A stretch of DNA of 64,000 bases from Amaricoccus macauensis. Lineage in GTDB: Bacteria > Pseudomonadota > Alphaproteobacteria > Rhodobacterales > Rhodobacteraceae. Within the stretch, counting starts at the first letter, position 1, and the number at the start of each line of letters is the position of its first letter. The stretch spans positions 496,001 to 560,000 of the forward strand of contig NZ_JACHFM010000003.1 in NCBI RefSeq assembly GCF_014201905.1, in the 5' to 3' direction. Both the position numbers and the translations under genes were made by a program. The notes beneath the pieces were generated by a model. It saw nothing but the letters and a program-made list of their open reading frames with translations. It was not told the DNA's origin and searched no databases. This document shows positions 30,594-35,419 of this stretch, in pieces.

Positions 30594-31532
30594 ATGACGA
30601 ATGATGCGCCCCGGCGCCGGACCGTTCCGAACTTCGCGCTCTATGGCGCGGAGGCAGGTCAGGCCTGGGTCGACATGGTGCATTGCGAGCGCATCCCCGC
30701 CCGCGCCGGCCGTTTCGGCTTCGAGATCGAGCCGCATTCGCACGACGGCCTGATCCAGTCGCTGCACGTGACGCAAGGCGGGGGCGAGACCTTCATCGAC
30801 GGCCAGGACTGGGCTTTCGCGGCGCCCTGCCTGATCGTCGTGCCGGCGCGGTCGGTTCACGGCTTTCGCTTCAGTGCTGACATTGACGGTCACGTCATCA
30901 CCGCCGCGCAGTCCGCGCTCGAGTCCGTTGCGATGGCGGCGGAGCCCGAGCTTCTGCCGTACATGCGCACGCCGGCGGTGCTGGCGATCGACCCGGCGAG
31001 CCGGCGCGGCACCCCGCTCGGCCCGCTCTTCGAGGCGATCGGCCGCGAGGCGGAAAGCCATGGCCGGTGGCAGTTCACCGCGGGCATCGCACTCACCATC
31101 GCGCTCTTCGTGCAGGTCGCGCGGTTGAGCGAGACGGCGCGGCTCTTGGCAATCCCCGCCCGCGCCGCGAGGGCGGCGCGGATCGAGCGGCTTCGCTTGC
31201 TCCTCGACGCGCGTTGCCGCACGCGCCAGCCCGTCAGCAGCTATGCGGCGGCCATGGGGATCACCACCGGCCAGCTCACGCGGATCTGCCGCGAGGCCTT
31301 CGGGGTGTCGGCCATCGAGGCGATCGACCTGCGCTCGATCCACGAGGCCAAGCGCCTGCTCGGCTACTCGGTGATGAGCGTCAAGCACATCGCGAGCGAG
31401 CTCGGCTTCGAGGACGAGGCATACTTCAGCCGGTTCTTCCGCAAGCAGACCGGCCTGCGCCCGACCGAGTACCGCGCGAATGCTCAGAGCCGGCTTGCAC
31501 CGACCCTGAGCGACGAAACCAAGGCGACCTGA
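30594..31532 (+). CDS. AraC-family regulator, PobR-like
   Basis: Transcription factor of 312 residues. The N-terminal part (V-P-N-F-A-L-Y-G, then I-E-P-H-S-H-D-G-L-I-Q-S-L-H-V) is a cupin-like ligand domain like that of PobR proteins, which respond to 4-hydroxybenzoate. The C-terminal double helix-turn-helix spans about 205-300, with the AraC signature V-K-H-I-A-S-E-L-G-F-E-D-E-A-Y-F-S-R-F-F-R. It is convergent with the P450-reductase fusion gene and is the obvious local candidate to control it. That pairing and an aromatic inducer are inference from similarity and position. Confidence 0.85.
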   Translation: MTNDAPRRRTVPNFALYGAEAGQAWVDMVHCERIPARAGRFGFEIEPHSHDGLIQSLHVTQGGGETFIDGQDWAFAAPCLIVVPARSVHGFRFSADIDGHVITAAQSALESVAMAAEPELLPYMRTPAVLAIDPASRRGTPLGPLFEAIGREAESHGRWQFTAGIALTIALFVQVARLSETARLLAIPARAARAARIERLRLLLDARCRTRQPVSSYAAAMGITTGQLTRICREAFGVSAIEAIDLRSIHEAKRLLGYSVMSVKHIASELGFEDEAYFSRFFRKQTGLRPTEYRANAQSRLAPTLSDETKAT

Positions 31533-31535
31533 GCC

Positions 31536-34331
31536 TCAGGCGACGAGCTCGCCCATGATGACGTGGAGGTTCTCCGGCCCGGAGTTCGTGAGGTTGTTGC
31601 CGCGCACGTACTTGATCGGCCTTGCCGGGTCGAAGGCCATGCCGTCGAGCTTGTTCACCAGCAGCTTCACCGAGATCAGGGTCTCGAGCTTGGCGAGCGG
31701 CATCCCGAGGCACTTGTGGACCCCGTTGCCGAAGCCGAGGTGGCCGCTGGTGTCGCGGTCGATGTCGAAGGTCTCGCCGTCGGGGAACCTGGCGCTGTCG
31801 CGGTTCGCGGCCGAGAGGAGCAGCCGTACGGTCGCGCCCTTCGGCAGGGTCACGCCCGACACCACGGTCTCTTCCGTGGTCATCCGGCTCACCCGCTGAA
31901 CCGTGCCGCGGTAGCGCGCGACCTCCTCGACGAAGCGGTCGATGTCGGCGGGGTTGTCGCGGAGCCGGGCGACCAGCCCGGGCTGTTCGGTCAGCATCCG
32001 GAAGGCGTTCGCGACAAGGATCGTCGTCGTATCGTGTCCGGCGATGAAGACGAAGGCGCAGAGCTCCTTGGCTTCCTTCTCCGACAGCAGACCGTCCTTC
32101 CACATGCGCGCGATGTGGCCGCCGATCGACGGGCTGCCGGACTTGTGCAGGCGCTCCATCGCCTCCTTGAGATAGGCGAAGAAGTCCATGGCGCTCTGCT
32201 CGTCGGTGCCGGTGCCGGGCGCGTTGCGGGCGAGGCGGCCGAAGTAGCTGAAGGTCTCGTCCGACCAGAACTTCATCTTCTCCTCGTCCTCGTTCGGCAC
32301 GTCGATCATCGTCGAGATCGTCGCGATCGAGAGCGGGATGGCGTAGTCCTCCACCACGTCGCCGCCGCCCTTCGCGATCATCGCATCAAGCAAGCTCTCG
32401 GCGCGCGCGGTGATCTGGTCGACGAAGGGTTCGAGCGACAGCGGCATGAACGACGGCTGGACCACCTTGCGCAGGCGCGAGTGTCCCGGCGAGTCGAAGA
32501 GCGTCAGGAACGTCAGCGGCGGCGGGCTCACGACCTCGGACGAGAAGAGCTTCGGGTTGCGGACCGCGGCGTAGACGTCCTCGTAGCGCGACAGGAACCA
32601 CACATCCGACGTCGCCGACTGGCAGCGCAGCACGGGCGCGTTCTCGCGCATCCAGCGATAGTGCTCGTAGGGATCGCCCTGCGACCCGTCGTCCACCACC
32701 TTGAAGGGCTCAAGCCCCTCGGGCCACGCCAGCTCGTGGGAGTAGGGGGGCAGCGGTGCCGCGGCGAACGGGCAACCCGCGGGCTCGGGCTCCGGCGCCG
32801 CGACAGGGACGGGCGCCGGGGCAGGGGCGGGCGCCAGGGCAGGGGCCGGTACGCGGTCCATCCGCTCCAGCGCCCGGCTCATCGTCGCCTTGGAGTGCTG
32901 GGCGTGGAGCGCGATCAGGTCGCGCGCGCGGTTGATATCGCCAAGCTCGAACGCCGCCACCAGATCGTGGTGCTGCTGCACGATGTCGCCGACGATCTCC
33001 ACCTCCGCCGTCAGCGCCCGGCCGATGTAGTCCTGAACCGCGAGCTGCTTGTAGAGCGTCACGAGTTGGGTGTTCTTCGACGCCTCGATCAGGAACATGT
33101 GGAAGGCGTGGTTCGCCTCGCTGTAGCGCGCGACATCGGTGAAGCGCTTGCCGGCCACATGGCGCCCGGTCGTGTCCGCGAGCTTGCGGTAGGCCATGAG
33201 CTGCTCGCTCGTGAGGCGCCCCATGACGAGCTGCGCCGCGCCGAGTTCGAGCGCCAGGCGCAGGTCGAAGGCCTCGTCGACGTCGATCGGCGCGATGTGC
33301 TCCTCGCCGGTCTGCACCACGAGGCCGCTGCCGGCAAACTTCTCGTAGTAGAAGTTCCGCGGCATCAGCCCCTCGGCCTTGAGGAAGCTGCGCACCGCAT
33401 CGACCATCGGCGGCGGACCGCAGAGATAGACATCCGCCTCGCCGCCGTTCAGTTGCGACGGCAGGATATGCGAGGTGACATAGCCCTTGTTCGGATAGCT
33501 GCTCGTCTCGCTTGCAACCGTGCAGAGATAGCTGAAGTTCGGCAGCCGGCTGGCGAAGGCGTCGAGCTTCTCGATCTCCACCAGATCGGCGTCATTGGTG
33601 ACGCCGAAGATCAGGTGGATCGGCTGGCGGGTCTCGCCGTCGGCGGCGATCTTCTCCAGCATGGACAGAAACGGCGCAAGCCCGGTGCCACCGGCGAGGA
33701 ACAGAACCGGGCGCTCGATCGGCCGAAGGTAGAAGCTGCCCATGGGGCCGCGCATCTCGATCTCGTCGCCGATCTTTGCCCGCTCCAGCAGCCAGTTCGA
33801 CATGACGCCGTGCGGCACGTTGCGGATCAGGAACGACACCTCGTCATCGGACGGGCCGGAGCTGAAGGAATAGGACCGGGTCTGGTCGGTGCCCGGCACC
33901 TGAAGATTGACGTACTGCCCCGGCAGGAAGCTGAGTGCGCCGCGGTTCTCAAGGGCGACCGAGAAGCTGAGGGCGGTGTCCGAGATCACCCGGCGCGCCG
34001 TGACGCGGCCCTTGTAGGCCGAGGCGGCGACGCTCGACACATCCGAGCTGGTGGCGATACGGACGACACAGTCGCTCGTCGGCCGCATCTGGCAGGTGAG
34101 AACCCGCCCGGCGGCGGCTTCCTCGGGCGAGAGGGCGTCGTCCACGCAGTCGCCGAGCTCATAGTCGCCGGACTCGCAGAGCGCCTTGCAGGTGCCGCAG
34201 ACGCCGTCGCGGCAGTCGAGCGGGATGTTGATCCGGGCGCGCAGGGCGGCCTCTGAGACCGGCTCGCCGTCCTCGCAGTCTATGAACTGCGTCACCCCGT
34301 CCTCGAACCGAAGGGTAATCTGGTGGGTCAT
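31536..34331 (-). CDS. fused BenC-type reductase - FCD domain - cytochrome P450
   Basis: A 931-residue single chain with four parts. Residues 1-95: plant-type [2Fe-2S] ferredoxin, cysteines C40, C45, C48, C80. 100-335: ferredoxin-NAD reductase, FAD motif R-S-Y-S at 152-155, nicotinamide motif G-G-T-G-L-A-P at 214-220, C-G-P-P-P-M-V at 304-310; this half closely resembles benzoate dioxygenase reductase BenC. 345-490: an FCD domain as in GntR regulators, with H411, H454/H455 and H476 as likely metal ligands, but no DNA-binding part. 495-520: alanine/proline linker. 525-931: cytochrome P450 with A-G-H-D-T-T at 764-769, E803-R806 (E-x-x-R) and heme loop F-G-N-G-V-H-K-C-L-G, heme cysteine C874. 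It should take NADH electrons to its own P450. The substrate is unknown; the PobR-like neighbour suggests an aromatic. GGAGG precedes the ATG. Confidence 0.9.
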   Translation of the reverse strand: MTHQITLRFEDGVTQFIDCEDGEPVSEAALRARINIPLDCRDGVCGTCKALCESGDYELGDCVDDALSPEEAAAGRVLTCQMRPTSDCVVRIATSSDVSSVAASAYKGRVTARRVISDTALSFSVALENRGALSFLPGQYVNLQVPGTDQTRSYSFSSGPSDDEVSFLIRNVPHGVMSNWLLERAKIGDEIEMRGPMGSFYLRPIERPVLFLAGGTGLAPFLSMLEKIAADGETRQPIHLIFGVTNDADLVEIEKLDAFASRLPNFSYLCTVASETSSYPNKGYVTSHILPSQLNGGEADVYLCGPPPMVDAVRSFLKAEGLMPRNFYYEKFAGSGLVVQTGEEHIAPIDVDEAFDLRLALELGAAQLVMGRLTSEQLMAYRKLADTTGRHVAGKRFTDVARYSEANHAFHMFLIEASKNTQLVTLYKQLAVQDYIGRALTAEVEIVGDIVQQHHDLVAAFELGDINRARDLIALHAQHSKATMSRALERMDRVPAPALAPAPAPAPVPVAAPEPEPAGCPFAAAPLPPYSHELAWPEGLEPFKVVDDGSQGDPYEHYRWMRENAPVLRCQSATSDVWFLSRYEDVYAAVRNPKLFSSEVVSPPPLTFLTLFDSPGHSRLRKVVQPSFMPLSLEPFVDQITARAESLLDAMIAKGGGDVVEDYAIPLSIATISTMIDVPNEDEEKMKFWSDETFSYFGRLARNAPGTGTDEQSAMDFFAYLKEAMERLHKSGSPSIGGHIARMWKDGLLSEKEAKELCAFVFIAGHDTTTILVANAFRMLTEQPGLVARLRDNPADIDRFVEEVARYRGTVQRVSRMTTEETVVSGVTLPKGATVRLLLSAANRDSARFPDGETFDIDRDTSGHLGFGNGVHKCLGMPLAKLETLISVKLLVNKLDGMAFDPARPIKYVRGNNLTNSGPENLHVIMGELVA

Positions 34332-34699
34332 GCGGTCGCTTCCTCCTGATTGCCGCCGGTTGGTTTCGTGGCGGCGGCGCTTGGACTGGAGCCCGGGCGG
34401 TACCGGCCGGTCGGGTTAGGATCCCGTCCGGGTGCATGGCATGCCCTGGCGTTGCTGTTGTCCCGATAAACCGCGAGGTGCGGTTTCGATCAACGGACAG
34501 AGGTAACGTATGACAGGACGGAACGTGCATCTTGCGTCTTCGGCGCGCTCCCCGCGGCCGGACCACGCGCCGGACAGTCCGAGGACAGGTCTTTCCCCGT
34601 GCAAACCCGGGCCAGCCTGTGCTAACCATCGCCGCAACGCTGAGTGGCGAGAGACAACGACTTGAAAGCGCAGAGAATTGGTGCGGGGCGCGGGCGCGA
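34332..34699. other. 368-base divergent intergenic region
   Basis: Lies between the P450 fusion gene and the Anbu gene. It holds the fusion-gene promoter with an inverted repeat (34465-34493). A 50-codon frame with an AGAGG site (34510-34662, plus strand) exists, but its proline-, arginine- and serine-rich translation resembles no protein I know, so it is not called. Nothing else is seen. Confidence 0.5.
34465..34493 (-). promoter_or_regulatory. putative promoter of the P450 fusion gene with operator-like inverted repeat
   Basis: On the minus strand TTGATC (34493-34488) and TTTATC (34470-34465) are 17 bases apart. The inverted repeat AAACCGCACCTCGCGGTTT (34486-34468) fills the spacer exactly, so a bound protein would compete with or reposition RNA polymerase. 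Confidence 0.45.
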
Positions 34700-35419
34700 A
34701 TGACCTATTGTGTGGGCCTGCTGCTCGAGACCGGGATCGTCATGCTCTCGGACACGCGCACCAACGCGGGGTTCGACAACGTCGCCTGCTATCGCAAGAT
34801 GTTCGTCTTCGAGACCACGGGCGAGCGGGTGGTCGCGATCCTGACAGCGGGCAATCTGTCCGTCACGCAGACGGTGATCGCGAAGCTTCGGCAGGCAATT
34901 GCGCGGGATGACCCGGAACACTCGATCATGCGGGCGCCCTCGATGCTCGACGTGGCCGAGATCATCGGGCGCACGCTGAACGACGTCCACGTCGCGGTGA
35001 ACGAGCGCATGGAGCGGACGAAGTACTCCGCCAGCGCGTCCATGCTCGTCGCCGGCCAGCGGCTCGGCGGGCAACTCCGGCTGTTCCTCGTCTACGAGGA
35101 GGGCAACTTCATCGAGGCGACCGACGACACGCCCTATCTGCAGATCGGCGAGCACAAGTATGGCAAGCCGATCCTCGACCGGGTGGTGACGCCGGAGACG
35201 ACCATCGAGGTAGGCCGCAAGGCGGTGCTGATCTCCATGGACTCGACCATGCGCTCCAACCTCTCGGTCGGGATGCCGCTCGATCTGCTCACCATCCGCC
35301 GGGGCGAGTACCGCGTGTCGACCCGCGAGCGCATCGAGGCCGGAGATCCGACGTTCAGCGCCATGTCGGAGGCCTGGGGCAATGCGCTCCGCGACGGATT
35401 TCTGTCGCTTCCCGGCTGA
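34700..35419 (+). CDS. Anbu-type proteasome-related protease (BPH family)
   Basis: Cytoplasmic Ntn-hydrolase of 239 residues in the Anbu/bacterial proteasome homologue group. The chain begins M-T-Y-C-V-G, so removal of Met would expose T2 as the catalytic nucleophile, as in proteasome beta subunits. Next come M-L-S-D-T-R-T-N-A-G and S-A-S-A-S-M-L-V-A-G-Q near residue 113, both seen in this family. Anbu genes often sit with ATP-grasp, alpha-E and transglutaminase genes; none lies here, so this copy is an orphan in the window. The frame upstream of 34700 is open but has no family similarity. Confidence 0.85.
   Translation: MTYCVGLLLETGIVMLSDTRTNAGFDNVACYRKMFVFETTGERVVAILTAGNLSVTQTVIAKLRQAIARDDPEHSIMRAPSMLDVAEIIGRTLNDVHVAVNERMERTKYSASASMLVAGQRLGGQLRLFLVYEEGNFIEATDDTPYLQIGEHKYGKPILDRVVTPETTIEVGRKAVLISMDSTMRSNLSVGMPLDLLTIRRGEYRVSTRERIEAGDPTFSAMSEAWGNALRDGFLSLPG

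Follow-up and report, generated by a model that had tools for sequence, protein, structure and literature searches.

A BenC-FCD-P450 fusion and its conservation

The stretch analysed here, a 64,000-nucleotide region of the Amaricoccus macauensis genome (the window), carries on its minus strand a single 931-codon reading frame in which a reductase of the benzoate dioxygenase type (BenC), an FCD domain and a cytochrome P450 are fused (Table 1). Five Pfam domains are recognized, all above their curated cut-offs: Fer2 (residues 10-85), FAD_binding_6 (109-201), NAD_binding_1 (211-314), FCD (353-478) and p450 (555-891). The N-terminal part passes the NCBIfam BenC model NF040810 (505.7 bits, cut-off 430; residues 3-334 against model positions 1-332 of 333), and residues 2-334 align nearly end to end with the benzoate dioxygenase reductase 1KRH (E 9e-113). 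The P450 part scores 84.5 bits against PF00067 (cut-off 22.8), and the part between them combines a PF07729 profile score above 24.3 with an FCD fold. An original prediction, made from the sequence alone, had described one 2.8-kb frame with a BenC-like reductase, a middle domain, an Ala/Pro linker and a complete P450; its coordinates, strand and frame are correct, as is the BenC assignment.

Related loci come from Burkholderiaceae and Enterobacteriaceae. A scan of the genomes of 84,980 species, with residues 340-931 of six fusions as query, returned 45 loci, comprising 43 fusions and two free P450s (both from Sinomonas); more distant members may be missed, because the scan relied on only two peptide patterns. 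A tblastn search of 72,556 plasmid records matched some portion of the fusion in 2,455 of them, and in five, all large Paraburkholderia replicons, at least 80% of it is covered in one place with 75-76% identity. Among these 48 fusion loci (43 genomic and five plasmid), 45 hold an intact single frame, one (L043) is truncated at the end of its contig, and in two the frame is broken. The intact frames rule out the artefact allowed for in the original prediction, in which two genes would have been joined by a sequencing error. The hosts, as named in record titles, are Paraburkholderia, Caballeronia, Burkholderia, Cupriavidus, Trinickia, Kluyvera, Enterobacter and Pseudocitrobacter, the last three being Enterobacteriaceae. 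The broken copies are found in Cupriavidus sp. UYMMa02A (L060, 6955-9776) and Kluyvera genomosp. 3 (L063, 6993-9751); at the Kluyvera locus the only KstD-like frame is also shortened, giving the appearance of decay throughout the system. The fusion of Paraburkholderia sp. FT54 (929 aa; L011, 10001-12790) is recorded only as 'benzoate 1,2-dioxygenase electron transfer component BenC', a name that hides the FCD and P450 parts, and database names of this kind need correcting.

Within the family of the window's host, the fusion occurs in one of 295 genomes, that of the window itself, at E <= 1e-180; at this threshold a genome of the same genus has none. In a sample of 398 genomes of the phylum, the only other matches at E <= 1e-130 are four plain BenC proteins. 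This restricted occurrence suggests that the fusion may have been gained by horizontal acquisition.

Residue conservation was assessed over 41 sequences, the window's and 40 homologues; these alignments and the ratios of non-synonymous to synonymous substitution (dN/dS) leave out the cut locus, the two broken loci and the five plasmid loci. The [2Fe-2S] cysteines C40, C45, C48 and C80, the FAD-motif residues R152 and Y154, the ExxR pair E803/R806 and the I-helix acid-alcohol pair D767/T768 are present in all 41 sequences. So is C874, the heme-ligand cysteine by position, as originally proposed, which with these last two pairs marks the C-terminal part as a P450. Median dN/dS, calculated without the window from those homologue pairs whose overall dS is 0.1-1.0 (531 of 780), is 0.118 for Fer2, 0.149 for the FAD domain, 0.135 for the NAD domain, 0.113 for FCD and 0.083 for P450. 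The constraint on FCD equals that on the reductase domains, and the linker (0.461) evolves about four times faster than FCD. The fusions form a single clade in a BenC tree (eight of the 41 included; support 100/98); in a P450 tree (12 of the 41, L040 omitted) a single fusion clade is not firm (62/42).

Table 1. Coordinates of the fusion gene, its parts and associated genes (window positions unless contig C4 of the same genome is named)
Feature	Position	Strand	Remarks
Whole fusion gene, 931 aa	31536..34331	-	ATG start at 34331, stop codon 31536-31538; intact homologues at 45/48 loci
[2Fe-2S] ferredoxin domain, residues 1-97, C40/C45/C48/C80	34041..34331	-	PF00111
FAD-binding domain, residues 98-204, R152-S-Y154-S-F motif	33720..34040	-	PF00970
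NADH-binding domain, residues 205-335	33327..33719	-	PF00175, NF040810, 1KRH; with the two preceding domains, a complete BenC
FCD domain, residues 336-492	32856..33326	-	N407, H411, H454, H476 at metal-site positions
Ala/Pro-rich linker, residues 493-525	32757..32855	-	Conserved CPF motif (520-522) at its end; dN/dS 0.461; 3/33 columns invariant
Complete cytochrome P450 domain, residues 526-931: AGHDTT, E803xxR806, FGNGVHKC874LG	31539..32756	-	PF00067; 253/406 columns invariant
Convergent AraC-family regulator, HpaA-like	30594..31532	+	PF12833; TIGR02297 (HpaA) 145.8 bits, below cut-off 274.65
NIPSNAP	contig C4, 2833-3402	-	
PobA	contig C4, 3405-4574	-	648.9 bits, cut-off 538.7
SDR	contig C4, 6533-7321	-	
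Periplasmic-binding protein	contig C4, 7336-8640	-	Between the SDR and KstD-like genes
KstD-like gene	contig C4, 8694-10391	-	64% identical to that of Paraburkholderia sp. FT54

Two further frames were observed in the window. An antisense frame of 897 aa (31563-34256, plus strand) spans almost all of the fusion gene and probably results from codon bias at high G+C, as long antisense frames are likewise present at the homologous locus L016. The divergent neighbour (34532-35419, plus strand) gives a weak match to a proteasome-type hydrolase (19.4 bits, cut-off 22.4).

P450 relatives, partner genes and a putative pathway

The closest free P450s found belong to two Sinomonas species (L061 and L062) and are 71.5 and 71.1% identical to the fused P450 part. 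Work by Yamamoto in 2021 reportedly concerns the pathway of Sinomonas cyclohexanicum. In both loci the P450 gene is followed by separate genes for a ferredoxin reductase and a [2Fe-2S] ferredoxin, the counterpart of what BenC would supply in cis in the fusion. Upstream of the P450 in both, ChcC2 (1024 and 1033 bits, cut-off 900) and ChcB2 (410 and 418 bits, cut-off 350) pass the NCBI curated cut-offs. ChcB1, scored in L061 only, reaches 449 bits (cut-off 400), and ChcC1 reaches 1011 bits in L062 (cut-off 1000) and 971 in L061, where the gene is cut by the locus edge. The names of these models describe enzymes that take 4-hydroxycyclohexanecarboxylate via 4-oxo intermediates towards 4-hydroxybenzoate. 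The accessible part of PMC9795900 describes an aerobic cyclohexanecarboxylate pathway in which hydroxylation at C4 by a P450, dehydrogenation and two desaturations by two desaturases lead to 4-hydroxybenzoate, and cites Yamamoto et al. 2021 for the Sinomonas cyclohexanicum pathway. A more distant P450 homologue (47%) occurs in Rhodococcus sp. USK10, again with reductase and ferredoxin genes behind it.

Neighbours of the fusions were counted within the fetched stretches at an identity of at least 50% (at least 60% for AraC). All 48 loci have a convergent AraC orthologue next to the fusion, and an SDR-family protein is found in 29/48, a KstD-like flavoprotein in 30/48 (L018 is included only for a 51% match at the edge of its stretch), a NIPSNAP protein in 30/48 and an OYE-like protein in 5/48. 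The OYE-type flavin reductase is an addition seen in Kluyvera and Enterobacter clusters (L056, 12745-13881), and the NIPSNAP protein (for example L011, 16468-16815, and on contig C4 of the window's genome) may be a pathway enzyme that has escaped recognition. A PobA homologue lies near the fusion in eight of the 48 loci; all eight pass NF006091 and four pass the stricter TIGR02360, for which the others score 526-535 (cut-off 538.7).

Genomes without a KstD-like gene close to the fusion generally have one at a distance: of the 13 searched, all but G985, the host of the broken Kluyvera fusion, carry one in another place (12 genomes; identity 54-68%, E <= 1e-195). This set leaves out the genomes of L023 and L044 and the plasmid loci L012, L016 and L017. 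The baseline, 25 of 200 genomes of one host's family at E <= 1e-190, is rough because the sample takes in genomes of small size and no fewer than two that carry the fusion. Contig C3 of the window's own genome holds the fusion and its AraC gene; on contig C4, NIPSNAP, PobA, SDR, a periplasmic-binding protein (perhaps for substrate uptake) and the KstD-like gene all lie on the minus strand, and an AraC gene there is oriented away from them.

Judged from these sequences, the fusion is probably a self-sufficient, NADH-dependent P450 with an N-terminal redox chain, acting as a 4-hydroxylase of an alicyclic acid, probably cyclohexanecarboxylate. Its domains point to an electron path from NADH through FAD and the [2Fe-2S] cluster of the BenC module to the heme of the C-terminal P450, which would run either in cis or between the chains of a dimer. 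On the evidence of homology and gene context, the position hydroxylated is most likely C4 of cyclohexanecarboxylate or of an acid closely related to it. SDR would then give the 4-oxo acid, KstD-like flavoenzymes would dehydrogenate it to 4-hydroxybenzoate, and PobA would take this on to protocatechuate. The AraC protein is probably the regulator of the fusion system.

Several observations weigh against this proposal. In the window's own genome, the fusion is on a different contig from the SDR, KstD-like and PobA genes. In the fusion clusters looked at, a single KstD-like gene was seen instead of two. For L011, L056 and the window's genome, the SDR and KstD-like proteins score below the equivalog cut-offs of the Chc models that they match (in the window's genome, 551.7 against 900 for the KstD-like protein and 166.7 against 350 for SDR), so that another alicyclic acid could be the substrate. 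The full-length structure model is poor (pLDDT 60.6, pTM 0.40), too poor for electron-transfer geometry to be taken from it. Finally, the BenC tree separates the fusions from the actinobacterial BenC-FCD proteins described below.

The FCD domain and alternative readings

Sequence searches of the FCD domain against solved structures give nothing significant (best E 0.027; 0.31 with a profile), unlike comparison of folds, which gives significant matches. A winged helix-turn-helix (HTH), the mark of a GntR regulator, is lacking, in that a Pfam search of the fusion gives no HTH family at E values up to 1. The candidate metal residues N407, H411, H454 and H476, at the positions of the metal ligands in FCD regulators, are invariant in 41 of 41 sequences. 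Asparagine in place of aspartate was considered as a mark of BenC-FCD proteins and rejected: among the FCD loci of the window's own genome (14 examined), six of the 11 with the motif have Asn. No FCD close to that of the window is found in the 298 other genomes of a phylum sample at E <= 1e-12.

BenC and FCD are also joined in actinobacteria. BenC-FCD-BenD proteins are encoded in Tsukamurella (L013, 8001-10583) and at L090 (712-3465), and a BenC-FCD protein at L091 (1462-3069), where FCD is the C-terminus and BenD a separate gene. The three loci present a graded series of fusions. Joining of benC, benD and FCD in Gordonia alkanivorans was noted in 2019, as stated in the accessible part of PMC6362181. 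In an FCD tree built from eight of the 41 fusions and 12 FCDs of the window's own genome (24 FCD matches; 14 loci returned, 12 recovered by profile), the FCDs of the fusions and of the BenC-FCD proteins form one clade (100/99). The FCD of the fusion is a folded domain kept by selection, and it belongs to a single lineage in common with BenC-FCD proteins. The additional middle domain of the original prediction is real, and its score exceeds the cut-off, but the BenC-FCD part is shared with the actinobacterial proteins. A single inherited BenC-FCD unit is not supported, since the BenC tree parts the two groups. A neutral relic or plain linker is ruled out by dN/dS and by L091, in which FCD ends the protein; a function tied to the reductase is favoured over a plain linker, because the L091 domain exists without a C-terminal enzyme.

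What this function could be is the least certain step of the proposed mechanism. The ligand of the FCD may be a small carboxylate, perhaps held by a metal at the four conserved positions; the domain may also, or instead, dimerise the chain, and may thereby gate or position electron transfer from the ferredoxin domain. Tentatively, the domain might bind a pathway carboxylate, or a metal-carboxylate pair, and switch electron flow from the [2Fe-2S] cluster to the downstream enzyme, such that NADH and O2 would be spent only with substrate present. BenC-FCD might then represent a portable ligand-gated reductase, plugged into at least two enzymes, BenD and P450.

A scaffold role fits the data as well as the sensor function by which the original prediction named the domain. 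It is quite plausible, if short of probable, that FCD is instead a ligandless structural module, for dimerisation or spacing, which joins the reductase and P450 of neighbouring chains for intermolecular electron transfer. In GntR proteins the FCD serves for dimerisation, and the PdhR 'C-terminal Dimerization Domain' is among the fold matches; moreover, FCD precedes two unrelated C-terminal enzymes, the P450 and actinobacterial BenD. The invariance of all four metal-site positions argues against a ligandless module, and the L091 arrangement, with FCD at the end of BenC and BenD encoded separately, indicates that it is not merely a spacer.

A second alternative retains the self-sufficient P450 but takes its substrate to be a methoxy- or hydroxybenzoate, as originally suggested, with BenC as a mark of benzoate chemistry. 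The BenC-type reductase, the HpaA-like AraC neighbour and the PobA homologues near eight of the 48 loci are consistent with this. It is nevertheless unlikely: an aromatic substrate needs no SDR and KstD-like dehydrogenase, yet both co-occur with the fusion, and the P450 is 71-72% identical to P450s within chc-type clusters. The fused BenC is also not encoded with benA and benB, as the reductase part of a benzoate dioxygenase would be. No relatives of these genes are found in the window by tblastn with Tsukamurella BenA and BenB at E <= 1e-4, and the genome has its own benABCD-like set on contig C1, where benA-, benB- and benD-like genes stand beside another, 53% identical BenC. The neighbouring genes point away from the benzoates first proposed and towards an alicyclic acid aromatised to 4-hydroxybenzoate.

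That the fusion is decaying or artefactual and without function is scarcely credible: the broken copies in two of the 48 loci and the absence of a match at E <= 1e-180 from 294 other genomes of the window's family stand against 45/48 intact loci, domains that are all under purifying selection (median dN/dS 0.08-0.15, linker excepted) and an AraC neighbour conserved in 48/48.

Comparison with known systems

The free P450 systems of Sinomonas resemble the fusion in their P450 (71-72% identical), in SDR and KstD-like partners of the same superfamilies and in the presumed route to 4-hydroxybenzoate. They differ in having a separate ferredoxin reductase and ferredoxin and no FCD, where the fusion has BenC and FCD in the same chain. 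The partner enzymes of the fusion that were scored fall below the Chc equivalog cut-offs, whereas those of Sinomonas pass (with ChcC1 of L061 cut by the locus edge).

Class VII P450s (CYP116B, P450 RhF) and the fusion both combine, in one chain, a path from NAD(P)H through flavin and [2Fe-2S] to heme. In class VIII, the P450 comes first. The same is true of class VII, in which an FMN reductase with a [2Fe-2S] cluster comes last, according to the accessible part of PMC11173547. In contrast, the fusion has an FAD-containing BenC first, FCD between and P450 last, and falls outside class VII. XplA, the class VI P450 of Rhodococcus rhodochrous, carries its flavodoxin at the N-terminus and needs a separate reductase. 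The accessible part of PMC11173547 defines class VI, from Rhodococcus rhodochrous, as a flavodoxin fused to P450. Like the fusion, it joins a redox module to a P450, but this module is a flavodoxin only, without [2Fe-2S] or FCD. The unusual order of the original prediction is real, conserved and the reverse of class VII; it has a precedent in general terms, the joining of a redox module to a P450 being already known from class VI.

The proteins of Tsukamurella (L013), L090, L091 and Gordonia alkanivorans share with the fusion the joining of BenC and FCD (in the order BenC then FCD in L013, L090 and L091). Their C-terminal enzyme is the benzoate-diol dehydrogenase BenD or none; that of the fusion is a P450. 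The FCDs of the GntR family (TM0439, VanR, DhdR, McbR) belong to regulators, whereas that of the fusion has no HTH, is part of a redox enzyme and is at most 23% identical in the listed structural alignments.

Ten P450 redox classes are described in the accessible part of PMC11173547, none of them pairing an FAD/[2Fe-2S] reductase at the N-terminus with a P450 at the C-terminus. The original prediction left room for an earlier characterisation of this architecture; no report of a BenC-FCD-P450 fusion was found in open PubMed Central papers, a coverage outside which most subscription journals lie, and the accessible part of PMC4547698 has no P450. The P450 fusion architecture appears to be new among self-sufficient P450s; BenC-FCD(-BenD) proteins occur in actinobacteria, with the joining of benC, benD and FCD already on record for Gordonia. 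The fusion would add to the ten classes an architecture with the FAD/[2Fe-2S] reductase first and the P450 last, and would place a domain derived from regulators within the electron path of a P450. Should FCD indeed gate electron transfer, this would be a natural answer to the P450 uncoupling problem and a ready-made engineering module. Natural pairs for comparison are provided by the close fused and unfused P450s, seemingly in the same kind of pathway, and by BenC with and without FCD.

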